Part shown: in pieces, positions 1-38,856 of the stretch
How the letters are laid out: every line of letters starts with the position of its first letter
How positions within the stretch are numbered: the stretch's first letter is position 1
Source: Candidatus Gastranaerophilales bacterium
GTDB lineage: Bacteria; Cyanobacteriota; Vampirovibrionia; Gastranaerophilales; Gastranaerophilaceae
Reading direction: 5' to 3'
Length of the DNA stretch: 40,322 nt
Assembly: GCA_944325535.1 (NCBI GenBank)
Contig: CALVAL010000011.1
Span: 1-40,322 of the forward strand
Program-made: the position numbers and the translations under genes
Notes under the pieces: generated by a model
What the model was told of the DNA's origin: nothing
The model's database searches: none
What the model saw: only the letters and a program-made list of their open reading frames with translations

Positions 1-100
1 GCTAAAGGTCAAACACAAAGCCAACTTTGCCGAATAATCTTTTTATGCGTTCAGATAAAATGTCCCGTTAAATTACATTTATGTCATGAATAAAAATTAA

Positions 101-127
101 AAAAAGCTAGTCATCGACTAGCTTTTT
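101..127. terminator. Hairpin terminator just left of the element (original tRNA terminator)
   Basis: A perfect 12-bp inverted repeat (101-112 with 116-127, 3-nt loop) has A/T runs on both sides, so it can work in both directions. On the minus strand it lies 8 nt beyond the tRNA 3' end preserved in the left att copy. I infer it was the original terminator of the tRNA before the element inserted. Bases 1-100 to its left hold no supported gene. Confidence 0.7.
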
Positions 128-177
128 AAAAATTGGGCCCGGAGGGATTCGAACCCACGACCAAAGGATTATGAGTC
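124..177. repeat. Left attachment repeat (truncated tRNA 3' portion)
   Basis: These 54 bp are identical to 7925-7978 at a constant offset of 7801. On the minus strand they contain the tRNA 3' end through the T arm to the anticodon loop (135-177). After 177 the sequence diverges into AT-rich element DNA, so this copy lacks the D arm and acceptor 5' strand and is not a functional tRNA. Confidence 0.9.
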
Positions 178-230
178 TTTTGATATATAAACATTACAAA
201 AATATTTAAAAACAAAATGTGTTATTATCA

Positions 231-259
231 TTGACTTTTAGAGATTTAAGTTTTAATAT
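231..259 (+). promoter_or_regulatory. Predicted sigma70-type promoter of the integrase gene
   Basis: A -35 box TTGACT (231-236) and a -10 box TAATAT (254-259) are separated by exactly 17 bp. They lie about 90 nt upstream of the integrase ATG. The integrase arm-type repeats (295-318) fall between this promoter and the gene, so integrase binding could feed back on its own expression. The role is inferred from spacing and consensus. Confidence 0.5.
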
Positions 260-294
260 TATTTTGTAATTTTTTGTACTTTTTTGAAAATTAC

Positions 295-318
295 TGCAAC
301 AAAATTGCAACATTTTTT
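295..318 (+). repeat. Left arm-type repeats, putative integrase-binding sites
   Basis: A TGCAAC half copy (295-300) is followed by TTGCAACATTTTTT (305-318). The identical 14-mer occurs at the other end of the element (7854-7867) in the same orientation. Lambda-type integrases bind short direct repeats in the att arms, which fits this position. Binding itself is inferred. Confidence 0.45.
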
Positions 319-348
319 ACAACAATTCTATTTAAGGTTTAAATTTTT

Positions 349-1452
349 ATGGCAACAATTCAAGAACGAAAAAAGAAGAACGGAAAAACAACGTACACCG
401 CAACTATCAGAGTAAAAGGGTATCCACCTATGACTGCAACATTTGATAGAAAATCAGATGCGCGCTTATGGGTACAAGAACACGAACCCGAAATGAAAAA
501 AGGTAAACATATCAAAGATTATGAAGCAAAAAAGCATACATTAGCCGAACTAATTGATAGATATATAGAAAATGAACTTCCACAAAGAAAATCGGATCAA
601 CAAAAATTTTTGACACATTTAGCTTGGTGGAAAGATAAAATTGGATATTATAACCTTTCTAGGATTGATAATATTGTTTTATCTGAATACAGGGATATAT
701 TGTCAAAAGAAAAATGTCTTATTCCTCGAAAAAATATGACTCCAAAAGAAAGCCAAAAAACAAGGTCAAATTCTACTGTAAACCGTTATATGGCTACTTT
801 ATCTATCGTTTTATCTGCTGCAGTAAAAGAATACGGCTGGCTTGATGAAAACCCAATGCTTAAAGTTGTTAAGAAAAAAGAACCGAGAGGACGTGTAAGA
901 TTTCTTGAAGATAAAGAGGTGCAAAGATTACTTGCAGAATGTTTAAAAGAGTCCTATGCGCTTTATTTATGCGTATTAATTGCGCTTTCAACTGGTGCAA
1001 GATATAGTGAAATAACTAATTTAACTTGGAAGAATATAGACTTAAAACATAGACAATTCCACTTCTTGGATACAAAAAACGGAGATGATAGAGGAGTGGC
1101 AATTACATCAAATATCTATAATGAACTTATTAAATTTAAAAAAGTACAAAACATAAATTCAGATTATCTTTTTGCAACCAATGACGGTAAAACTGTTATA
1201 TACTTGCGTGGGCAATTTGAAAGAGCAGTAAAACGCGCTAAACTAGAGAATTTTCATTTCCACGATTTAAGACACACTGCAGCAAGTTTTTTAGCTAAGG
1301 GTGGCGCTAGTTTATTAGAAATTGCAACAATTCTAGGACATAAAACATTACAAATGGTACAGAGATATTCACATCTAACCAAAAATCACACTGCAACCGT
1401 ACTAGAAAATATGAATCAAGAGATGTTTAAAAACATAGCTATAAATGAATAA
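349..1452 (+). CDS. int: Tyrosine recombinase/phage integrase
   Basis: This is the site-specific recombinase expected to integrate and excise the element at the tRNA repeats. The 367-residue length is usual for a phage integrase. The N-terminal part (about 1-55) resembles the arm-binding domain. The SAM-like core-binding domain covers roughly 60-165 and the catalytic domain about 180-350. The catalytic set is visible: R218 in TGARYSE, K243, H305 and R308 in HDLRHTA, H331 in LGHKT, and the nucleophile Y340 in QRYSHL. It starts 171 bp inside the left att repeat and reads away from it, the usual placement. The ATG is preceded by a modest AAGG. The gene looks intact, so the element may still be mobile. 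Confidence 0.95.
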   Translation: MATIQERKKKNGKTTYTATIRVKGYPPMTATFDRKSDARLWVQEHEPEMKKGKHIKDYEAKKHTLAELIDRYIENELPQRKSDQQKFLTHLAWWKDKIGYYNLSRIDNIVLSEYRDILSKEKCLIPRKNMTPKESQKTRSNSTVNRYMATLSIVLSAAVKEYGWLDENPMLKVVKKKEPRGRVRFLEDKEVQRLLAECLKESYALYLCVLIALSTGARYSEITNLTWKNIDLKHRQFHFLDTKNGDDRGVAITSNIYNELIKFKKVQNINSDYLFATNDGKTVIYLRGQFERAVKRAKLENFHFHDLRHTAASFLAKGGASLLEIATILGHKTLQMVQRYSHLTKNHTATVLENMNQEMFKNIAINE

Positions 1453-1461
1453 TGCAATAAA

Positions 1462-1473
1462 CATGCCGGCATG
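1462..1473. repeat. 12-bp palindrome, first copy (CATGCCGGCATG)
   Basis: This is a perfect 12-bp GC-rich palindrome in otherwise AT-rich sequence. It lies between the integrase stop codon and the next gene. An identical copy occurs at 4918-4929, after the replication genes. Eight-base partial matches occur inside genes (for example near 4299). It is a candidate protein-binding site. Confidence 0.5.
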
Positions 1474-1484
1474 AGGTTAGAATA

Positions 1485-2357
1485 ATGACAAGTGAAACAA
1501 ATTACTATCAAGTTATATATGACTTAAAAAATTATCAAAATTCACTATCTAAAATCAAAGATTATGAAGATTTAGACATGTTTCTTGCAGAGATTAAAGC
1601 TTATATTTTTTCGATAAAAGAACTAAAAGAAATTTTTATATCTAAAATAAAAGAATATGATAGAGCCAAAACAGTTTTAGAAGAAAAAATTAAAACTCTA
1701 TATCAAGAGATACAAAAAAATAATACTAACTTAACATATATACCTTTAAATACAGATGTTGTAAATGTCTTTCACGGCGATACTCAATATTTTGATACAA
1801 GTAACGCTTTTGATTATCCTTTACTTTTCTATTTTCCGTCATTCAAACTTAGCAAAAATGATAAAGTTTATCGTTCAGAGCTATGTATAAATGCGTTTTA
1901 TATTCAAATAGAAAATAAGGAATTTGTAGGAAAAATCAGCAAATTAATATCTAAAATGGGTAACTGTTTAGATTTTGCGATATTAAGTCAGAACATAATT
2001 CCAACAGTTCCAACAATTAACTTTTATATCTCGTATGTAAGGACTGCCTTATATAGTGTTTTAAACATTCTAGAGATAAAAACACAAAAACTGGCAATGC
2101 GCAATTTGTATAATTATTCAGATTATCAGATAACAAAAGAATTATATCTTGATAATTTAAAAAAACTATCTCAAGCCGAACTAAGAGTATACAATAAATT
2201 ACTTGAAAACCCTACATATACAAATGATACTATCGCAAAAGCCTTGGTAATTGATAGAACTACTGTAAAATCTCATATTGAAAATATCTGTGCTAAGTTT
2301 GAGTTAATTAAAGCCAATAAGAAAACATTAGTACGATATATTTTAGAAAACAAATAA
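1485..2357 (+). CDS. LuxR-type HTH regulator with an unknown N-terminal region
   Basis: This 290-residue protein has a C-terminal LuxR/GerE-type helix-turn-helix at about 228-290. It begins LSQAELRVYNKLL and contains the recognition-helix pattern TTVKSHIENI, followed by the usual lysine-rich tail. The N-terminal 220 residues match no domain I recognise; residues 20-80 are lysine-rich and helical, probably coiled-coil. GAGG precedes the ATG. It directly follows the integrase and lies just upstream of four phased TCCTCTCT repeats (2361-2401), which could be its operator. I infer a transcriptional regulator of the replication or excision genes; the signal it senses is unknown. Confidence 0.65.
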   Translation: MTSETNYYQVIYDLKNYQNSLSKIKDYEDLDMFLAEIKAYIFSIKELKEIFISKIKEYDRAKTVLEEKIKTLYQEIQKNNTNLTYIPLNTDVVNVFHGDTQYFDTSNAFDYPLLFYFPSFKLSKNDKVYRSELCINAFYIQIENKEFVGKISKLISKMGNCLDFAILSQNIIPTVPTINFYISYVRTALYSVLNILEIKTQKLAMRNLYNYSDYQITKELYLDNLKKLSQAELRVYNKLLENPTYTNDTIAKALVIDRTTVKSHIENICAKFELIKANKKTLVRYILENK

Positions 2358-2360
2358 AAA

Positions 2361-2401
2361 TCCTCTCTTTTCCTCTCTAAATCCTCTCTTTTTTCCTCTC
2401 T
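2361..2401 (+). promoter_or_regulatory. Four TCCTCTCT repeats at about helical-turn spacing
   Basis: Exact TCCTCTCT octamers start at 2361, 2371, 2382 and 2394, which is 10, 11 and 12 bp apart, so all lie on roughly the same DNA face. They sit just after the LuxR-type gene and upstream of a possible -10 box (TATACT, 2431-2436). Each octamer is also the exact reverse complement of AGAGAGGA (2477-2484), the ribosome-binding region of the next gene. They could be protein operators or RNA elements that mask that site. Confidence 0.6.
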
Positions 2402-2493
2402 AAGAGATGATTATTTGTGATGGAATTTTTTATACTATGTAAAACATACAGAAACAAAAAAAAAGTTTACAAACAAAGAGAGGAGAAAAAAAC

Positions 2494-2721
2494 ATGCCAG
2501 AAAATTTAACAGAAAATGCGCAATCTAAACCGGAACTAATTCCAGTTACAAAATGGAATACTTATTATGATTATCCTACTTTGGGAAGCATAAGACAATT
2601 AATTTTCTACAATACTGACAATTTTAACGACAAAGTTCTACGTAAAATAGGCAAACGTCAATATATTAAAGTGTCAGAATTTTTTAAATGGGTAGAAGAC
2701 ACCAATAGAAAAACAATTTAG
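2494..2721 (+). CDS. Small excisionase-like/AlpA-type winged-helix protein
   Basis: This is a 75-residue protein. Residues about 26-71 carry the pattern YPTLGSIRQLIFYN, then KVLRKIGKRQYIKVSEFFKW. That layout is found in small phage and island proteins annotated as excisionase or AlpA-like MerR-type DNA-binding proteins. A strong GAGGAG site precedes the ATG and is complementary to the upstream TCCTCTCT repeats. It lies between the integrase/regulator pair and the replication gene. I infer a recombination directionality factor or transcriptional activator. The family resemblance is moderate and no structure can be checked here. Confidence 0.55.
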   Translation: MPENLTENAQSKPELIPVTKWNTYYDYPTLGSIRQLIFYNTDNFNDKVLRKIGKRQYIKVSEFFKWVEDTNRKTI

Positions 2722-2737
2722 TAGACAGGCATGCAAT

Positions 2738-2774
2738 AAAAAAAGACTCTCCAAATGAGAGTCCCAACAATTCT
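2738..2774 (-). ncRNA. Predicted short antisense RNA upstream of the replication gene
   Basis: A minus-strand promoter (2781-2809) would start transcription near 2774. The product ends about 37 nt later at a hairpin with a 7-bp stem (2745-2751 with 2757-2763), followed by seven U residues (A2738-A2744 on the plus strand). It is therefore a complete promoter-to-terminator unit. It is antisense to the leader of the O-like replication gene that starts at 2840. The layout resembles counter-transcribed RNAs that limit plasmid replication. The RNA and its function are inferred. Confidence 0.5.
2745..2763 (-). terminator. Rho-independent terminator on the minus strand
   Basis: The stem GACTCTC/GAGAGTC has a 5-nt loop, with seven T residues following on the minus strand. 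No minus-strand protein gene lies upstream of it, which is why a small RNA is proposed. On the plus strand the same hairpin would sit in the leader of the replication gene. Confidence 0.65.
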
Positions 2775-2780
2775 ATATCC

Positions 2781-2809
2781 ATTATAGGTGCGTTGGTTTT
2801 CTATTGCAA
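2781..2809 (-). promoter_or_regulatory. Predicted minus-strand promoter for the antisense RNA
   Basis: On the minus strand, TTGCAA (2804-2809) and a perfect TATAAT (2781-2786) are separated by exactly 17 bp. It points away from the replication gene toward the hairpin at 2745-2763. Confidence 0.55.
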
Positions 2810-2839
2810 GTACAAACATCATAGAAAGGCTATCAAATA

Positions 2840-3784
2840 ATGGCAGATGTAAAATTGAAAAACGGATATTTAAGAATTGCAAATAGTCTATATGAAAACT
2901 TATACTTTAGGAATTTTAGCAAACGTGAACTTCTAGTAATATCGCTCATTTTGCGTTTGTCATATGGTTTTAACAAAAAAACGGCTATTATTAAGCCTAA
3001 AACTTGGTTTAGCGTTTGCGGATTGTATCAACCAGACATTAACAAAGTATTAAACGGGTTAATTGCTAAAAATGTTATTAAAAACCTTGGTGATAACGTA
3101 TATTCTTTGAATAAAAATTATGATGAATGGGGCGTAAACTTCCCTGAAAATTATGACGAAAATAAATTAAATATTTTAAAAATGTTTCAACAAACAGAGC
3201 AAAATACTATACAAAATGATAGTAATTTACTATCAAATAATATAGTAAATTGCTATTACGAAAAAACAGACATAGAGCAAAATACTATACCAAACCATAG
3301 TAAAAAACTATCAAAAGATATAGTAAAAAGCTATATAAAAAATGCCCAAAACAAAGACGGCAAAAACGATTTAACCACCTCTAAAAACAATAAATACAAT
3401 ATAAAGACATATATTAAACACACATATATAGGTGGAGAAAATAAAAAATCTAATGAAAAAATAGACCCCTATTTTAATAATCCCATAGCAGATTATTTCA
3501 AATCAGAGTATAAAAGAATCTCTCAAAAAGATGATTGTTACTTAGATAACTCAAAGTTAAACAAATTACTTGAAATTAGTGCAGATTATCCAATATTTAA
3601 GGAACGACTCCCCGAAATTTTAGAAAAGTTTTTTAAAATTACTTTTCCTAGTGGAAATAAACCTTCTACAAAATGGCTAATTAATGATGGAAACTGGGCG
3701 GGAATTTTAAACGGAGATTACGATCAATACATAACAAATACTACGCAGAAAAAAGAAAAGGAGATTGACGGGTGGACTCTATAA
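2840..3784 (+). CDS. Phage replication protein O-like initiator
   Basis: The N-terminal domain (about 6-100) follows the phage replication protein O pattern. It has NGYLRIANSLYENL, then LLVISLILRLSYGFNKK, and a winged-helix-like stretch ending LNGLIAKNVIK. Lambda O family proteins bind the element's origin through this domain and recruit the helicase loader. The middle (about 110-200) is rich in N, K and T and low in complexity. The C-terminal part (about 205-300) is likely a partner-binding domain. The length of 314 fits the family. The next gene is a DnaC-like loader, as in O-P or O-DnaC pairs. AAAGG precedes the ATG. The antisense RNA unit upstream suggests post-transcriptional control. 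Confidence 0.75.
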   Translation: MADVKLKNGYLRIANSLYENLYFRNFSKRELLVISLILRLSYGFNKKTAIIKPKTWFSVCGLYQPDINKVLNGLIAKNVIKNLGDNVYSLNKNYDEWGVNFPENYDENKLNILKMFQQTEQNTIQNDSNLLSNNIVNCYYEKTDIEQNTIPNHSKKLSKDIVKSYIKNAQNKDGKNDLTTSKNNKYNIKTYIKHTYIGGENKKSNEKIDPYFNNPIADYFKSEYKRISQKDDCYLDNSKLNKLLEISADYPIFKERLPEILEKFFKITFPSGNKPSTKWLINDGNWAGILNGDYDQYITNTTQKKEKEIDGWTL

Positions 3785-3827
3785 ATAAAATATTGAATAA
3801 TACAACTAAAGAAAAGAATCCGAAAAA

Positions 3828-4580
3828 ATGCAGGCATGCCAGTATTGCGGTAAACCCTACGTATGGTTTGAAAAAGAATTATTTAGCGGTGTGCAGAAAA
3901 GATTATTAAAAGTACAAGTCCCTGCTTGTAAATGCATTGAAGAAAGAGAAAAACAACAAGAACATCAAATAAAAATGCACAACATAGCGGAAAAACAAGC
4001 GAGATTGTTTGAAAATTCCTTGATGACTGACCTATTCAAAGATAAAACATTTGAAAATCTATTAAAGGCAGAAAATTTACTAAAATACAATAATGCACCT
4101 ACAATTCATAAGTGCCAAGAATATGCTAGACAGTTCAAGCCTAAAGAAAGTTACGGTATTCAAATGATAGGAAATCCCGGTACGGCAAAAACAACTCTTT
4201 TAGCTGCAATTTGTAACGAGCTTATAAGAAAAAATTATTCTTGTTTATTTACAACTTTATCAAATTTAATAGATAAGTTTGCAATTTACAGTTATGAGCA
4301 TGCCGGTAACATAACACCTCTTTTAAATTGGCTTACAACCTTTGATTATGTTGTTTTAGATGATATTGGCAGAGAAACATACAGCGACAAAAGAAAAGAA
4401 CTTGTATTTCGGATAGTAGATACATTACTAAACAATAAGGTAGTTACAGCTTTTAGTGCAAATCCTGAATGTATTACGAAATTAAAATCTATACCAGAGT
4501 TAAACGCAGTAATTGATAGATTAAAAGATATGTGTCGTATAAGTCTTGAGTTTAAAGGTGAAAGTTTTAGGGGAAGATAG
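3828..4580 (+). CDS. DnaC-like helicase-loader ATPase
   Basis: This AAA+ ATPase is expected to load the host replicative helicase at the element's origin. It has Walker A GNPGTAKTT at about 115-123 and Walker B VVLDDIG at about 175-181. A sensor-like FSAN lies near 205, with a downstream arginine in AVIDRLKDMCR. The N terminus has a possible zinc site: C4 and C7 in CQYCG, and C34 and C36 in CKC. DnaC/DnaI proteins often carry such a site. The length of 250 is normal. It lies 43 bp after the O-like gene and 3 bp before the next one, so the three are probably co-transcribed. Confidence 0.85.
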   Translation: MQACQYCGKPYVWFEKELFSGVQKRLLKVQVPACKCIEEREKQQEHQIKMHNIAEKQARLFENSLMTDLFKDKTFENLLKAENLLKYNNAPTIHKCQEYARQFKPKESYGIQMIGNPGTAKTTLLAAICNELIRKNYSCLFTTLSNLIDKFAIYSYEHAGNITPLLNWLTTFDYVVLDDIGRETYSDKRKELVFRIVDTLLNNKVVTAFSANPECITKLKSIPELNAVIDRLKDMCRISLEFKGESFRGR

Positions 4581-4583
4581 CTG

Positions 4584-4859
4584 ATGAACTATGTTATGCA
4601 CTTTTGCCGTAATAAGCAATGTAATAATGGTTGGATTGATAAAGATTTGACAAATGTCAAAACTAATCCACCTAGTTGGAAGTATTGCAGAGAATGTGCA
4701 GAAAAACTCGGAATAGATTACGATTCACAAACTCCAACAAGTAATTTAACAGAAAAAGAATTAAAAGAGCGAGAAAGAAAAATTTTACTCTCTAAAAAAG
4801 CTACAGAAGCAAGATTAAAAAAAATTAAATTTGCGACCATAAAACAGGGGTATTTTTAA
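4584..4859 (+). CDS. Small zinc-ribbon-like protein of unknown function
   Basis: This 91-residue protein has a likely zinc-binding N-terminal half, with CRNKQC at about 8-13 and CREC at about 35-38. It is followed by a highly charged helical tail rich in K, E and R (about 55-85). It starts 3 bp after the helicase-loader stop codon, so it belongs to the replication operon. I do not recognise the family; small zinc-ribbon proteins in this position are common in phage replication modules. A nucleic-acid-binding accessory role is an inference from context. Confidence 0.55.
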   Translation: MNYVMHFCRNKQCNNGWIDKDLTNVKTNPPSWKYCRECAEKLGIDYDSQTPTSNLTEKELKERERKILLSKKATEARLKKIKFATIKQGYF

Positions 4860-4917
4860 TAGTTCACCCCTTGGAGAATATAAATCTACATCACAAGCAA
4901 TAAACTCGTCAAATATT

Positions 4918-4929
4918 CATGCCGGCATG
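4918..4929. repeat. 12-bp palindrome, second copy (CATGCCGGCATG)
   Basis: This is identical to 1462-1473. It lies 58 bp after the replication operon and at the edge of an unusually GC-rich stretch (4945-5040). The pair roughly brackets the regulator and replication genes. Confidence 0.5.
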
Positions 4930-5042
4930 GGAAAATAGCAAAAACCCCACCCCTCACGCTCACCTTACTTGTGCATTTTTTGAAGCTGGGGACGCGGTCT
5001 TCTGGACTGGAGTTTTTTCAAAAATTATGGGGGGAGGGAGTT
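4930..5042. other. GC-rich non-coding segment, possible origin or structured RNA region
   Basis: Between the converging replication operon and the ArpU-like gene lies a strand-asymmetric stretch. C-rich blocks at about 4945-4960 (CCCCACCCC, then CTCAC repeated as CTCACGCTCACC) are followed by G-rich blocks at about 4986-4993 and 5030-5039. The C and G blocks could pair imperfectly over about 80 nt. It contrasts strongly with the AT-rich surroundings. An origin or a shared terminator is possible; nothing decides between them. Confidence 0.3.
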
Positions 5043-5564
5043 TTATATGACCAAAGACTTTACTTTATTAAAGAACTCTTGATATGAACACTCTTTTTCT
5101 TCACACATTTTTTTTATAATTTTCAGCTTTTTTGTTGCGGTTTTCTCTTCTTCATTAGTTTGTTCTAAGTAATACAATGCTTTTCTATGCCAAAGCAAAG
5201 CTTTATCCTTGTATTTATATTCTTTTTCTTCTTCAAAATCGTCATTATCTCCGAATAATATTTCAATGATTTTAGACCACTTATAAAGATATAAATAACG
5301 CATAGTTAGAATGTTTTTATGATGACTTTTTTTAAGCTTACTAATTTGGTTTTTAATAATTTTTTGATTAGTGATAGTACTCTTTTTTAATTGTTCATAA
5401 GCTAAATTAGTCCTTGAAAGTGCAATTTTGTATTTTGCAAGCTCTTCCCCAGTTGCAGAATTGAGTTTAGCTTTAAATAGTTTTCGTTGCCTGCAGTAAT
5501 GACTGTATTCTAAGAGATTGTCTTTATACTGTTCTAGGTCTTTTTTAGTAATAAGTTTATCCAT
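5043..5564 (-). CDS. ArpU/DUF1492-like phage regulator (tentative)
   Basis: This 173-residue, lysine-rich and largely helical protein starts MDKLITKKDLEQY. Residues about 94-133 read as a sigma-region-4-like helical unit. They comprise NILTMRYLYLYKWSKIIEIL, a short acidic stretch, and LLWHRKALYYLE. This order (RY...W..I...L, then H..AL..L) is what I associate with ArpU/DUF1492 proteins, which control late phage or satellite transcription. The N-terminal 90 residues are probably coiled-coil. It is convergent with the replication operon and downstream of DUF3800 on the same strand. The ribosome-binding site is weak. The resemblance is from memory and moderate. Confidence 0.5.
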   Translation of the reverse strand: MDKLITKKDLEQYKDNLLEYSHYCRQRKLFKAKLNSATGEELAKYKIALSRTNLAYEQLKKSTITNQKIIKNQISKLKKSHHKNILTMRYLYLYKWSKIIEILFGDNDDFEEEKEYKYKDKALLWHRKALYYLEQTNEEEKTATKKLKIIKKMCEEKECSYQEFFNKVKSLVI

Positions 5565-5669
5565 ATGATAATTTTAAAGCTTGGGGGAAATTAAAACAAT
5601 TTTCAAAACAATAGTCATTTTGTATAGTTATTTTGTTGAAATAAAAATAATAATCTTTTGTATTATTGC

Positions 5670-6359
5670 TTATTGACAAAACTTGAGCTTTTCAACGTGT
5701 TTTAAAAAGTTTTTTCTTAACTTTCTTGCAGAGCCGAAAAACTTATTTTCTGAATTTGTTAAATTTCTATTATTATTCAACTTTTCTTCAAGCAATGATA
5801 ATGTACATAAAAAATCTGCGGTCTGGAATAACTTATATTCGTTAGGTACGCCACCTCTAAATTCCACATTATTTTCATCAAATAAAGATCCAAAAACGGA
5901 ACTCAATATTTTTGTTAATTGCATTTGTCCGTTATCATAATAAACAATTATGTTATCAAATTTATTGAAGTAGTTATAATTTTCTTTAATAAAAGCAGCT
6001 AATTTTTTTGATAGCATTTGAATTAATTTCAAATCGTCATTACATTGCTTTTTGTTGATTGTGATATTTTTATATTTTATTGGAACTTTACAAGTAAAGC
6101 GATATAATTTTGTAAAAATACTATATCTTTCTTTCAAACTATTGTTTTGATATTCTTTTTCTCTTCTTATTAAAGGCCCTGTATGTATAGTGTGATTTTG
6201 TAAGCCAATTTGTGAAAGCGAAATATCTAAATTTTCTACTTGTGTTTTTATACTATTTTTTTGCTCATGTAAGACTAACGTAATTAAGTAATATGGGCAT
6301 TCTTCACATAGTTTGCCAAAATCTCCAGATTCATCAATAAAAATACTTAATTCCTGCAC
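5670..6359 (-). CDS. DUF3800-domain protein
   Basis: The start IFIDESGDFG (about 6-15) is the hallmark of DUF3800, a predicted RNase H-like-fold family common in phages and accessory regions. The conserved C-terminal motif is present as FQTADFLCTL at about 178-187, and another acidic site lies near YYDNGQMQL. The length of 229 is normal. I chose the GTG start because GAGGG lies 5 nt upstream. A small RNA with its own promoter and terminator (6375-6431) lies immediately upstream. Conserved RNA motifs named DUF3800-I and so on are known in this position. The biochemical role is unproven; nuclease, defence or toxin-like activity is plausible. Confidence 0.8.
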   Translation of the reverse strand: MQELSIFIDESGDFGKLCEECPYYLITLVLHEQKNSIKTQVENLDISLSQIGLQNHTIHTGPLIRREKEYQNNSLKERYSIFTKLYRFTCKVPIKYKNITINKKQCNDDLKLIQMLSKKLAAFIKENYNYFNKFDNIIVYYDNGQMQLTKILSSVFGSLFDENNVEFRGGVPNEYKLFQTADFLCTLSLLEEKLNNNRNLTNSENKFFGSARKLRKNFLKHVEKLKFCQ

Positions 6360-6374
6360 TTAATCCCTCGTATT

Positions 6375-6431
6375 AAAAAGACGGGGAGTTTCCCCCGTCG
6401 TGGTGGACCGAGAGCACAATGCCCAGCCCGT
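6375..6431 (-). ncRNA. Candidate DUF3800-associated structured small RNA
   Basis: The minus-strand promoter at 6438-6466 predicts a start near 6431. The RNA is about 57 nt and G/C-rich in an AT-rich context. It ends in a hairpin with a 20-nt span (6380-6399) followed by five U residues. It stops 16 nt before the DUF3800 GTG, so most transcripts would end before the gene and readthrough would express it. The 5' half can form a small GGGC/GCUC hairpin; a pseudoknot cannot be judged by eye. I call it a DUF3800-type RNA by position, not by a covariance-model match. Confidence 0.6.
6380..6399 (-). terminator. Terminator between the small RNA and DUF3800
   Basis: The stem of GACGGGGG against CTCCCCGTC closes a short A-rich loop, followed by a T-run on the minus strand (A6375-A6379 on plus). 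It lies between the RNA promoter and the DUF3800 start codon. This is the same relative place as the attenuating terminator in type III toxin-antitoxin loci. Confidence 0.8.
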
Positions 6432-6437
6432 TAATAC

Positions 6438-6466
6438 ATTTTAACACATATTGTTTGTATTTTCAA
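6438..6466 (-). promoter_or_regulatory. Strong predicted promoter of the small RNA/DUF3800 unit
   Basis: On the minus strand, TTGAAA (6461-6466) and TAAAAT (6438-6443) are exactly 17 bp apart. The initiating A is predicted near 6431. Confidence 0.65.
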
Positions 6467-6508
6467 GAGTCCTTTTGTATTTTTTTAGATTCGTTTAAAT
6501 TTATTATA

Positions 6509-6715
6509 TTATTTTCTCTTCACCCATTCGATATCATAGCCTAATAAATCAGCTATTTGCGAAATTTCTATATAGTCAAAGCTTGCTTTTTTTATACGTT
6601 GGGAAATATTTGCTTGTGAGGTACCCAACTTTTCAGCTAATTTGCTTATATTCAAACCGTTTTCTGCTAGTTTTCCTTTTAGAAAATACTCAAATTCTAT
6701 TTTGTTATTAATCAT
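6509..6715 (-). CDS. Xre/Cro-CI family repressor
   Basis: This 68-residue single-domain HTH protein has LNISKLAEKLG, then TSQANISQRIK (about 20-42) as the helix-turn-helix pair. The tail IADLLGYDIEWVKRK is typical of Xre-family HTH_3 domains. AAAGGAC precedes the ATG. Its promoter (6736-6764) carries an operator-like ATTATAATT in the spacer, implying autoregulation. It is divergent from the small-gene operon at 6869, in the layout of a CI/Cro or Stl switch. It is the most likely master repressor of the element. Confidence 0.85.
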   Translation of the reverse strand: MINNKIEFEYFLKGKLAENGLNISKLAEKLGTSQANISQRIKKASFDYIEISQIADLLGYDIEWVKRK

Positions 6716-6735
6716 AAATATGTCCTTTCGATTAA

Positions 6736-6764
6736 ATTATAAACTATTTAATTATAATTTTCAA
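6736..6764 (-). promoter_or_regulatory. Promoter of the Xre repressor gene
   Basis: On the minus strand, TTGAAA (6759-6764) and TATAAT (6736-6741) are separated by 17 bp. One copy of the palindrome-based ATTATAATT (6751-6759) lies inside the spacer, where a bound repressor would block RNA polymerase. Confidence 0.6.
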
Positions 6765-6820
6765 TTATATAATTATAAAGTTTTGTAAAAGATTATAATT
6801 ATTATATTGATATTATAATT
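6751..6820. promoter_or_regulatory. Three identical operator-like sites (ATTATAATT)
   Basis: Exact copies lie at 6751-6759, 6792-6800 and 6812-6820. The core ATTATAAT is its own reverse complement. The outer copies fall in the spacers of the two divergent promoters, with one between them. Half-matching AATTATAA occurs near 6771 and at 6838-6845. The region is extremely AT-rich, so chance similarity is possible, but the placement is that of a two-way repressor switch. Confidence 0.5.
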
Positions 6821-6835
6821 GTTTAGTTATATAAT
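6807..6835 (+). promoter_or_regulatory. Promoter of the right-end operon
   Basis: TTGATA (6807-6812) and TATAAT (6830-6835) are separated by 17 bp. An ATTATAATT site overlaps the -35 end and the spacer (6812-6820). The promoter drives the gene at 6869 and probably the following ones. Confidence 0.55.
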
Positions 6836-6868
6836 ATAATTATAAGATTTAATAATAAGGTAAGCAAA

Positions 6869-7114
6869 ATGAAGCAATCCGAAATCAAAACAAATGAATT
6901 AGAAGTAAGAAACTATGATGTAAATTACAGATATGGAACCGATTGGGTTACAGAATTTACATTTATCAGCGAAGAAAATCTAACTCTTGACCAGTTCCAA
7001 TTAATTTTAGAAGGCAAAGGGGCTTATGGTTGCTTAACCTTTATTAAAAAAGTTATGAATTTTGCAAACGGCAAAAAACTTTATAAACACATTTGCAAGG
7101 CTGTAATGTATTAA
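6869..7114 (+). CDS. Small protein of unknown function, first gene of the right-end operon
   Basis: This 81-residue protein has no domain I recognise. The first 55 residues alternate like a small alpha/beta fold (NYDVNYRYGTDWVTEFTF, then LDQFQLILEGKG), and the C-terminal 20 residues are basic. AAGG lies 7 nt before the ATG. It is the first gene right of the repressor switch, the position of cro or early regulatory genes. It lies 19 bp from the next gene and is probably co-transcribed with it. Confidence 0.55.
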   Translation: MKQSEIKTNELEVRNYDVNYRYGTDWVTEFTFISEENLTLDQFQLILEGKGAYGCLTFIKKVMNFANGKKLYKHICKAVMY

Positions 7115-7133
7115 TAAGAAAGGATTTAGAAGG

Positions 7134-7409
7134 ATGAACAAGCAAGAACTATTAAAACAAATCCAGGAACTAAAAGAATTAAAGGTAATGCAAGAGGAAT
7201 TACAAGCGGAAATTACATCTATTGAAGATAGTATCAAGGCAGAAATGACAGCTCAAAAGGTCGAAGAAATGCAGGTCGGAATATTTAAAATCAGATGGAC
7301 TCAAGTTGTAAGTAATAGATTTGATACAACACAATTTAAAAAGATTTACGCAGATCTATACAACCAATTTTCAAAAAAATATAAAACAAGACGTTTTAGC
7401 ATTGCTTAA
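7134..7409 (+). CDS. Phage-early-type coiled-coil protein
   Basis: This is a 91-residue protein. Residues 1-45 form a coiled coil of repeated L, K and E heptads, ending in IKAEMTAQKVEEMQVG. The C-terminal half reads FKIRWTQVVSNRFDTTQFKK, then a tail ending in RRFSIA. I recognise this organisation (a helical half, an RFDT/FKK block and a terminal RRFSI) from small proteins in the early or replication-recombination clusters of gut Firmicutes phages. Their function is not established. AAGGA precedes the ATG. It supports a phage origin for the element. Confidence 0.6.
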   Translation: MNKQELLKQIQELKELKVMQEELQAEITSIEDSIKAEMTAQKVEEMQVGIFKIRWTQVVSNRFDTTQFKKIYADLYNQFSKKYKTRRFSIA

Positions 7410-7548
7410 AATTCATTCTCTGCAGAAACGAGATGAGTCAAAATCGATTTTTATATCTTGTTAGGTAGTTTGATATCTAAAATAAATTTAACCCGCCTTA
7501 ACGGTACTTAGTAGCATATGAAATTTAATTAAAAAGGAGAATACTAAA

Positions 7549-7827
7549 ATGAACGAACAACCAAAATACAAACAATTAGAAAATTTAGGCATTGATATTG
7601 ATTTAATGAATATGATTTTAGGTAGATTAGACAATATGAAACTATTAGTATCTTATATTTCCAGTGAATTGGAAAATATTAGCGATATTGAAGATTTATC
7701 AAGATATTCGGACATAACTTTACTTGATACAATAAAACGAGTTGTGCAACTTACATATATTTTTGATAATGAATTTAAAGAAGCAAATAAAAGTGCTGAG
7801 TTGCTGAATAAACAAATGAACTTTTAA
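7549..7827 (+). CDS. Small acidic helical protein of unknown function
   Basis: This 92-residue protein is almost entirely helical and acidic (LGIDIDLMNMILGRLDNMK, then SELENISDIEDL). I do not recognise a family. A strong AAAAAGGAG site precedes the ATG. It lies 139 bp after the coiled-coil gene; that gap holds no recognisable gene, hairpin or consensus promoter. It is the last gene before the right att arm. In satellites this slot often holds cargo, but the sequence gives no clue to activity. Confidence 0.5.
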   Translation: MNEQPKYKQLENLGIDIDLMNMILGRLDNMKLLVSYISSELENISDIEDLSRYSDITLLDTIKRVVQLTYIFDNEFKEANKSAELLNKQMNF

Positions 7828-7842
7828 AATTTTAATTTTCAA

Positions 7843-7867
7843 TTGCAACATTTTTGCAACATTTTTT
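7843..7867 (+). repeat. Right arm-type repeats, putative integrase-binding sites
   Basis: Two overlapping copies of TTGCAACATTTTT lie at 7843-7855 and 7854-7867. The second carries a sixth T and is identical to the left-end copy at 305-318. They lie 58 bp inside the right att repeat. Confidence 0.45.
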
Positions 7868-7890
7868 AAATAACAGTAAGTATAAAATAA

Positions 7891-7918
7891 AATAGCAAAG
7901 GCTAAAACCTTTGCTATT
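7891..7918 (-). terminator. Element-encoded replacement terminator for the tRNA
   Basis: An 11-bp stem (7891-7901 with 7908-7918, 6-nt loop) is followed on the minus strand by a T-rich run. It lies 17 nt beyond the tRNA 3' end, inside the element. Its sequence differs from the chromosomal hairpin at 101-127, but it takes the same position relative to the tRNA. Confidence 0.65.
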
Positions 7919-7924
7919 GTTATC

Positions 7925-7978
7925 TTTTAAAAATTGGGCCCGGAGGGATTCGAACCCACGACCAAAGGATTATGAGTC
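7925..7978. repeat. Right attachment repeat within the intact tRNA
   Basis: This exact 54-bp copy of 124-177 begins 10 nt beyond the tRNA 3' end and reaches into the anticodon region. Integration here restores a complete tRNA gene. Confidence 0.9.
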
Positions 7979-8006
7979 CTCTGCGCTACCGCTGCGCCAC
8001 AGGCCC
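7935..8006 (-). tRNA. tRNA-Met (CAU anticodon; tRNA-Ile2 not excluded)
   Basis: On the minus strand the acceptor GGGCCTG pairs with CGGGCCC. The D arm is GCGC/GCGC, and the anticodon stem GAGGA/TCCTT encloses CTCATAA, so the anticodon is CAU. The T loop is TTCGAAT. The T stem has one apparent U-U mismatch at its second pair. No CCA is encoded. A CAU anticodon can belong to Met or, after lysidine modification, Ile2; the choice needs a model. Its 3' half is the integration target. Confidence 0.85.
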
Positions 8007-8233
8007 TTATATTGTGGCGATTTATATTTAATTGTCATGCCCTTGCCTGTGTCTTGCGCTCCCGAACTATCATAAAGTCTAGCGTTTAGTTCGTAGATAT
8101 TGAGTGGTATTTGTTGAGTTTTGAATATAACTCATTTACCCCTCGGCAGAGTACCACAGGCCCGTATTCTGTGACAAGCTTTATTCTATCAACTAAATAC
8201 TAAAAAATCAAGTTTATTTCTCTTTTCTATTTT
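8007..8233. other. Gene-free stretch with a tRNA 5'-end copy and nested hairpins
   Basis: The tRNA end CCACAGGCCC (7997-8006) recurs at 8154-8163. GCCTGTG (8045-8051) pairs with CACAGGC (8155-8161). Within that pair are two further hairpins, CGAACTA/TAGTTCG (8063-8069 with 8087-8093) and TGAGTT/AACTCA (8115-8120 with 8129-8134, extended by GGTA/TACC). The tRNA promoter should also lie here. No protein gene is supported. Confidence 0.4.
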
Positions 8234-8542
8234 CTAATGTACATGTTTTGGTCTTAATAACAGCATTTTTGTATCTTCTATCGCTTTTAGTCCATGAGGA
8301 GTTTTAGCTGGCATGACTATCATTTCATTCGCTTTTAATACAAATTTATCCTTACCGATAGTGACTTCAGCTTTCCCTTCAATAATTTGTGCGACCTCAT
8401 CCTGCTCATCCACATGAAGTGCTCTTTCAGTTCCAGATTTGAACGAAATTAACGTCAAAGAGCTATTTTGATTATCAAAGACAAGTTTTTTGTTATATTT
8501 TTCACCGTATTCTATATTATATAAATTTATTATTTCTGACAT
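8234..8542 (-). CDS. Small cupin-domain protein
   Basis: This 102-residue single cupin barrel has motif 1 as ERALHVDEQDEVAQIIEGKAE (about 39-59), with H43 and glutamates. Motif 2 is IVMPAKTPHGLKA (about 75-87), with H83. Small stand-alone cupins of this kind bind a metal and act as isomerases, dioxygenases or stress proteins, so the substrate cannot be named. It is divergent from gyrB with 89 bp between the start codons. AAGGGGG lies upstream of the ATG. Confidence 0.8.
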   Translation of the reverse strand: MSEIINLYNIEYGEKYNKKLVFDNQNSSLTLISFKSGTERALHVDEQDEVAQIIEGKAEVTIGKDKFVLKANEMIVMPAKTPHGLKAIEDTKMLLLRPKHVH

Positions 8543-37560: not shown

Positions 37561-38856
37561 TTATTTTAGAAGCTCTATAATTTTTTCAAATCCCATACTG
37601 CGTGATGCTTTTAGGAAAATTGTAGAAGATTTTTTTATATTCTTTTTTATATATGGAATAATTTCTTCAATGCTATCAAAATGATTTGGGTAGCAATTTA
37701 CAATTTGAGAAGAAATTTCTTTTGAGAGCTTTCCGACTGTTAATATTTTAGCATTTTTATCAAGTAATTTATGTGAGTTTATATATTCACCTAATTCTTT
37801 ATGATATTTAATTTCATTTTCTCCTAGCTCTCCCATATCGCCAAGAATCAGAACGTAATTTTTGTAGTGTTCAAAAATCGTATCAACAAATGCTCGCATT
37901 GATTCAGGGTTTGCATTGTAACTGTCGTTTATTATTTCAAAACCACTTGCGTTTACTCCTTCCCAGCGTTTTTCAATAGGAGAATATTTTTTTAAGCCTT
38001 CTTTTATCTCGTCCTCATTCATCCCAAGCGCTAGTCCTGCATTAATTGCGCTTAGAGCATTTTCAATATTATAGTCTCCGCCGACGTTGAGTTCATATGT
38101 ATGATTTTTGTACTCAAATTGTGAGTAATTTGCGTTTTTTTCTAGAATTTTTACATCTTTTATTGAATAAAATATTTTTTTACCGCTAAATTCTACAGTC
38201 TTTTTAATTAGCTCATCATCATGTGCTATAAAAATATTTCCTCGTTGGTATTTAACAATCTCGCATTTTGCTTTTGCGATGTTTTCTTTTGAGCCTAATC
38301 TTCCGATATGAGCGGTTCCAATATTCGAAATGATTGTAATATCAGGTTCTGAATATTTTGAAAGTAATTCAATTTCCCCAAGACCTCGCATTCCCATTTC
38401 AAGCACTAGGACTTCGGTATCATCTGGAGCTTCAAAAATTGTCTGACAAAATCCTATTTCATTGTTATGATTTAGCGGAGTTTTGAATGTTTTAAATTTT
38501 TCGCTAAGAGCTGATGCTACAAGCTCTTTGGTAGTAGTTTTGCCTGAGCTTCCTGTAATTGCTACAACTTTGAAATTGAGCTTGTTTCTTCTCCAATTTG
38601 CAAGTTCTAAATATGCTTTTAGTGTATCTTCGACCTGAAGAGTTCCGTTCTCTCCGGTAGAAAAAGCTCCAACAGCGCCTTTTTCTAGCGCTTGTTCTAT
38701 AAACTTTTCACCATCAAAAGAAGCGCCTTTAAGTGGCAGGTAAAAATCTCCTTTTGAAATAGTTCTAGTATCAGTAGAAATTTTTACATCTAAATTTTCA
38801 TCAATATCTTTTAAAACTTTTGCATTAGTAGCTGCAATTAAATCTCTTATTTTCAT
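37561..38856 (-). CDS. murF: UDP-MurNAc-tripeptide D-alanyl-D-alanine ligase
   Basis: MurF adds D-Ala-D-Ala to the UDP-MurNAc tripeptide, the last cytoplasmic step of peptidoglycan precursor synthesis. The N-terminal substrate domain ends near 95. The ATP-binding loop AITGSSGKTTTKELVASAL lies near 100-118, the central block NNEIGFCQTIFEAP near 130 and LVLEMGMRGLGEI near 150. The C-terminal domain has INDSYNANPESMRAF near 307-321, which holds conserved Mur-ligase residues. At 431 residues it is normal. TATAAT (38866-38871) lies 9 nt before the ATG, so the mRNA leader is almost absent. It is divergent from mnmE. Confidence 0.95.
   Translation of the reverse strand: MKIRDLIAATNAKVLKDIDENLDVKISTDTRTISKGDFYLPLKGASFDGEKFIEQALEKGAVGAFSTGENGTLQVEDTLKAYLELANWRRNKLNFKVVAITGSSGKTTTKELVASALSEKFKTFKTPLNHNNEIGFCQTIFEAPDDTEVLVLEMGMRGLGEIELLSKYSEPDITIISNIGTAHIGRLGSKENIAKAKCEIVKYQRGNIFIAHDDELIKKTVEFSGKKIFYSIKDVKILEKNANYSQFEYKNHTYELNVGGDYNIENALSAINAGLALGMNEDEIKEGLKKYSPIEKRWEGVNASGFEIINDSYNANPESMRAFVDTIFEHYKNYVLILGDMGELGENEIKYHKELGEYINSHKLLDKNAKILTVGKLSKEISSQIVNCYPNHFDSIEEIIPYIKKNIKKSSTIFLKASRSMGFEKIIELLK

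Follow-up and report, generated by a model that had tools for sequence, protein, structure and literature searches.

A short RNA transcribed convergently in front of a replication gene is already a known kind of arrangement. In phage lambda, the convergent promoter pO lowers the pR transcription that reaches the origin, and mutation of pO lowers the copy number of lambda plasmids; the OOP RNA acts on cII mRNA through RNase III (PMC3985674). In plasmid pMV158, the 48 nt RNAII, located between copG and repB and termed the smallest characterised, blocks the translation of repB (PMC4485353). In the cyanobacterial plasmid pSYSA, asRNA1 is cis-antisense at a small gene that precedes a primase/helicase Rep gene, and it has been tied to copy number (PMC9978351).

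Here we describe a unit of this general kind in a 40,322 nt stretch of DNA from a Candidatus Gastranaerophilales bacterium (the window), where a promoter and a terminator on the minus strand face the replication operon of an integrative element. In the open-licence literature that we searched there was no description of such units in these elements.

Results

The integrative element

The window contains a 7.8 kb integrative element, located in tRNA-Met and bounded by a 59 nt repeat (Table 1). In addition to a tyrosine integrase, the element encodes a regulator with a LuxR-type HTH and, in one direction, a 75 aa protein, an O-like replication initiator and a DnaC-like helicase loader. The 75 aa protein had no match in Pfam and PHROG searches; we call it excisionase-like from its size, its position and the type of its sequence. 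By analogy with lambda O, the iteron-like repeats inside the O-like gene (repeat score, p 0.01) are probably the origin. No phage structural genes were found among the element proteins examined with Pfam and PHROG, and megablast of positions 1-8400 against phages gave no match. Nor did viral contigs contain a match to the excisionase-like protein or to the pattern GACTCTC-N5-GAGAGTCCCAAC.

Other features of the element lie outside the replication leader. Upstream of the excisionase-like gene, four CCTCTCT-type repeats (2358-2490, plus strand) are complementary to the ribosome-binding site of that gene, AAAGAGAGGAG. Transcripts that read through from the regulator gene could cover the excisionase-like ribosome-binding site by way of these repeats, or the repeats may bind a regulator. 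The palindrome CATGCCGGCATG occurs twice together with its flanks, once after the integrase gene (1456-1473) and once after a 91 aa gene (4912-4929). Finally, minus-strand positions 6384-6430, directly upstream of a DUF3800 gene (6359-5670, minus strand), match the Rfam DUF3800-XI RNA with 25.9 bits, compared with a gathering score of 37.8 (targeted search, E 2.4e-4); this is probably a genuine member of the family.

Table 1. Features of the integrative element and of the promoter-terminator unit in its replication leader (positions in the window)
Feature	Position	Strand	Basis or remark
Left attachment repeat	124..182	+	59 nt, 97% identical to 7925-7983 (3' part of tRNA-Met)
Tyrosine integrase gene	349..1452	+	Pfam Phage_integrase, E 1.2e-32
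Excisionase-like protein gene, 75 aa	2494..2721	+	Upstream gene of the operon; conserved beside int in related elements
Intercistronic leader of the O-like gene, 118 nt	2722..2839	+	Runs from excisionase-like to O-like gene; holds the unit
Predicted antisense RNA, 37-39 nt	2736..2774	-	Sequence prediction; 5' tail of about 9 nt, terminator hairpin, U tail
Intrinsic terminator hairpin, 9 bp stem and 5 nt loop	2743..2765	-	T-tract 2742-2736 next to it
-10 hexamer TATAAT	2781..2786	-	17 nt spacer; identical in relative L023; TANNNW at the equivalent place in other units
-35 hexamer TTGCAA of the convergent (antisense) promoter	2804..2809	-	Sequence scan; identical in relative L023
O-like replication initiator gene	2840..3784	+	Pfam PF04492, E 1.3e-22; PHROG DnaD-like / O-like
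Iteron-like repeats in the O-like gene	3196..3334	+	Two 61 nt copies 78 nt apart; inverted ATAGT/ACTAT units
DnaC-like helicase loader gene	3828..4580	+	PHROG phrog_50, E 1.3e-38; Pfam IstB_IS21
Right attachment repeat	7925..7983	+	Inside tRNA-Met(cat) gene 8006-7935 (-)

A convergent promoter and terminator in the replication leader

The first-pass annotation of this DNA had reported a minus-strand TTGCAA-17-TATAAT promoter, a short transcript and a U-tailed hairpin at the front of the replication gene, with no minus-strand gene for them to serve. We found all of these in the sequence, at the coordinates given, the transcript as a prediction. The promoter matches the consensus at 10 of 12 positions, and the unit as a whole, from promoter to terminator, spans about 70 bases. 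Transcription would start at A2774, 7 nt past the -10 hexamer. Read on the minus strand, the hairpin has the sequence GGGACTCTC-ATTTG-GAGAGTCTT and is followed by the T-tract TTTTTATT, which specifies seven U; the folding energy of the predicted short RNA is -11.9 kcal/mol (z -3.0). On one side, 14 nt separate the T-tract from the stop codon of the excisionase-like gene, so that the upstream coding region is not overlapped; on the other, the RNA 5' end lies 66 nt upstream of the ATG of the O-like gene, and the ribosome-binding site of that gene is left uncovered. The curated covariance models of Rfam gave no match within 2700-2850, up to an E value of 5.

Is the hairpin a terminator, and if so for which strand? 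Because the same stem and U-tract are also found 3' of a tRNA-Gln gene and of another tRNA gene, in the same or a related genome, it is a terminator of a type used in this lineage. That it serves the upstream gene on the plus strand is ruled out, since the U-tract is missing on the sense side of the hairpin.

Each part of the unit, taken alone, is close to what shuffled sequence would give: the 3.5 kb region has 25 promoter-like sites (17.7 expected) and 2 terminator-like sites (1.4 expected). The case for the unit therefore depends on the combination of its parts and on the relatives. These counts are what would be seen if a promoter-like and a terminator-like sequence had come together by chance in AT-rich DNA, but distinct elements have the unit in the same position and orientation, and it is conserved in the closest relative. 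Chance is accordingly a barely credible explanation and, given the recurrence in related elements described below, an untenable one.

The closest relative (locus L023, genome G276) was the only true homologue in a DNA search with the leader across the family; the other matches fell on terminators of the tRNA type or on the beginning of an O-like gene. The first-pass annotation had looked to relatives for conservation of the promoter and hairpin, and L023 provides it: its leader is nearly identical to that of the window, with the -35, the -10 and both hairpin arms intact, and differs by three substitutions, in the spacer and start region, and by one A added at the T-tract. The O proteins of the two elements are 59-60% identical and the DnaC proteins 92%. 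DNA identity is about 90% on either side of 2880-3383 and only 30-60% over most of that interval, which covers the O N terminus and the iterons, forming a sharp mosaic. Between the window and L023, then, the leader has been retained and the initiator-origin module has either diverged or been exchanged. The mosaic also points to a swap of initiator-origin specificity.

Recurrence in related elements

The excisionase-like protein is present in 49 of the 383 genomes of the family, and the leaders 3' of it have the same architecture with different sequences. The common layout consists of a TTGNNN-like -35, 17 nt, a TANNNW -10, an A at +7, a hairpin of other sequence and a U-tract. We used a strict scan for this layout, requiring a promoter with 9/12 or more matches or an extended -10, a stem of 6 bp or more with 4 GC, 5 or more T in 8, and a distance of 4-40 nt. 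With thresholds that were partly fixed after the first cases, and among loci that are not all independent, the scan found the unit on the antisense strand in 11 of 28 related loci (9 distinct sequences) and on the sense strand in none, the background being 10 in 6000 random 190 nt windows. Relaxing the scan gave 12 of 26 on the antisense strand, again none on the sense strand, and 25 in 4000 random windows. Codirectional gaps of 60-220 nt elsewhere in the fetched loci held a unit in one case out of 78. Among seven loci that had not been used in noticing the pattern, two have the unit: L241, and L245, which is close to L176. As a control, the scanner was applied to lambda, where it recovered pO, with a start near 38676, together with the terminator.

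Fourteen distinct units were listed by eye. In all but one, which has G, the +1 is A, and their predicted RNAs, 33-53 nt long, all run from a 5' tail through a hairpin, which differs in sequence from unit to unit, to a U tail. The units of L175, L179, L188, L190 and L194 were recognised by eye and fail the strict scan. Between lineages the sequence of the antisense RNA is not conserved, and automatic alignment of the units misregisters the hairpins. If the replication ORF is read from its first possible start, its 5' end takes in the unit in L166, L176, L188, L189 and L194. The unit is absent from the xis-bearing elements L169, L171 and L173.

Sixteen loci were extended. In 14 of them the excisionase-like gene stands next to an integrase match of the same kind, and in most there are tRNA-end repeats spaced 4.6-12 kb from each other. 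We also noted a set of Gastranaerophilales elements of satellite size (L259-L271, L029 and L027; 4.6-12 kb), bounded by repeats of the ends of tRNA-Phe, -Met, -Lys and -Glu, that carry an integrase, an excisionase-like gene and diverse replication genes.

The unit is not tied to one replication gene

The replication gene behind the unit varies. It is O-like in the window, a DnaD-like loader in L170, L172, L175, L176 and L195, a primase or helicase in L166, L188, L189 and L241, a replication initiation protein or replisome organizer in L186, and a primosomal or initiation protein in L179; no function is assigned to the downstream proteins of L191 and L194. Three O-bearing loci of the order (L024, L025 and L026) are without the unit, the O-like gene following another gene with no room between. 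As a general feature of O-like replicons the unit is ruled out by a survey that took in 106 O-like loci of many taxa and produced two scanner matches, L125 and L058 (the latter the close relative itself), against a background of 0.8% per window. The varied replication genes behind the unit and the O-like loci without it together lead us to conclude that, judged by sequence, the unit belongs to a class of element and to the position before the replication gene, and not to the O family. Iteron-like repeats in the replication gene, present in only part of the loci, are likewise ruled out as its constant companion.

Structure of the leader on the plus strand

It might be argued that what is conserved is a plus-strand structure of the leader, a three-way junction or an attenuator, and that the minus-strand promoter is incidental. 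The leader of the window does fold well below its shuffles (z -3.56); it can adopt a three-way junction in which the -35 and T-tract regions come together as the outer stem, and an outer inverted repeat can be seen in the window, L186, L190 and L195 (p 0.04, 0.002, 0.01 and 0.004). However, only L186, L190 and L195 have this repeat at a significant level; in the window it is marginal and in the other loci absent, which rules out the three-way junction as a general conserved object. Beyond the hairpin the folds have no common shape, the U-tract is on the minus side only, and it is the promoter hexamers, their spacing and the A at +1 that recur. We conclude that a plus-strand structure is improbable as the conserved object.

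Where the inverted repeat occurs, in the leaders of L190, L186 and L195 and at 2722-2809 in the window, it encloses the whole promoter-terminator unit. This raises the idea that DNA synthesis is primed here, by the short RNA or from a single-stranded-DNA promoter that the outer repeat would form, in the manner of a single-strand origin or of the old lambda oop primer proposal. The unit is indeed beside the probable origin, and in some elements the outer repeat pairs the promoter with sequence past the terminator. But the repeat is not general and the terminator is strong; moreover, a pair of O and DnaC-like proteins normally, we presume, loads the helicase and uses the host primase, and for lambda a primer role has been judged unlikely (PMC3985674). 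We therefore regard priming as very improbable.

Comparison with lambda and with plasmid antisense RNAs

The first-pass annotation had considered such a unit unexpected for an O/DnaC replicon. This is mistaken, as lambda has its pO/OOP unit exactly between cII and O. The likeness considered here is one of layout. In both cases a convergent promoter lies immediately before an O-type initiator; a short RNA, predicted in the window, stops at an intrinsic terminator located between O and the gene for a small DNA-binding protein; iterons lie inside the O gene (annotated in lambda, iteron-like in the window); and a downstream partner loads the helicase. The two also differ. OOP is 77 nt long and overlaps the end of the cII coding region, whereas the shorter RNA predicted here (37-39 nt) ends 14 nt beyond the upstream stop codon. 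The upstream gene is not cII, its coding region is not overlapped by the RNA, and related units here also stand before non-O replication genes.

The predicted RNA has the anatomy of pMV158 RNAII. Both are below 50 nt (48 nt for RNAII), both consist of a 5' tail, a single terminator hairpin and a U tail, and both lie wholly between a small DNA-binding-protein gene and a replication gene, directed against the operon. To this extent the likeness to plasmids under antisense control that had been suggested for this locus is supported; the unit itself is a feature of element class and position, and not of the O replicon. The settings are different: pMV158 is a rolling-circle plasmid with the CopG repressor, whereas the element in the window integrates and has O-like and DnaC-like proteins, and the target of RNAII is immediately upstream of the repB initiation signals, whereas the target here is well upstream of the ribosome-binding site. 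The asRNA1 of pSYSA, from a sister lineage, is comparable in its gene context, before a replication gene; it differs in its proposed RNase E, ColE1-like mode and in belonging to a large plasmid (PMC9978351).

Discussion

Our preferred interpretation, which we think is probably correct, is that a convergent promoter-terminator unit produces an untranslated RNA of about 37-39 nt antisense to the leader, and that it lowers or tunes the excisionase-replication operon by interference, by the antisense RNA or by both. We infer from the sequence that the unit is transcribed, that it affects the operon and that the effect has this sign. Down-tuning of the operon would in turn reduce replication of the excised form, and it is plausible that the unit controls copy number.

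There are two routes by which this could occur. RNA polymerase firing against the operon would hinder transcription into the replication gene and the probable origin within it, as shown for lambda pO. By the second route, the RNA would use its 5' tail and hairpin to pair with the nascent leader; the outcome could be inhibition of translation, as with pMV158 RNAII, or cutting of the duplex by RNase III, as with lambda OOP and cII. The RNA is unlikely to mask the ribosome-binding site directly, since its 5' end is 66 nt short of the O-like start codon; transcription interference or a duplex with the nascent leader is more likely.

Could the first of these routes be the whole explanation? In that case only the convergent promoter would matter, the RNA would be a by-product, and the terminator would shield the upstream gene from antisense transcription. 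It fits this idea that promoter and terminator are kept and the RNA sequence is free to vary, that in the five loci named above the unit falls within the start of the replication gene's coding sequence, counted from the first possible start codon, and that lambda pO reportedly affects replication via pR transcription and not via OOP RNA (PMC3985674). On the other hand, the arrangement of tail, hairpin and U tail closely resembles that of pMV158 RNAII, which does act as an RNA, and a perfectly complementary RNA arises in cis anyway. We consider it unlikely, although deserving real weight, that interference is all there is.

A wider proposal is that the unit is a portable replication-control cassette, in which a convergent promoter and a self-terminating RNA of 33-53 nt are placed before whatever replication gene is present, sometimes inside its coding start and, in some members of the family, within an inverted repeat that could form a single-stranded-DNA promoter. 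In this full form we think the proposal quite unlikely.

Overall, two things make the unit interesting: it is found in front of replication genes that are unrelated, and its predicted RNA is shorter than the known examples. If transcribed, this would be among the shortest antisense RNAs in replication control, and its recurrence before unrelated replication genes would represent a solution like that of lambda pO/OOP, tied to a position in the operon and not to one initiator. The mobile elements of this bacterial order are hardly described in the literature that we searched, and the differences among their units supply natural variants with which the part played by the convergent promoter could be told from that of the RNA.
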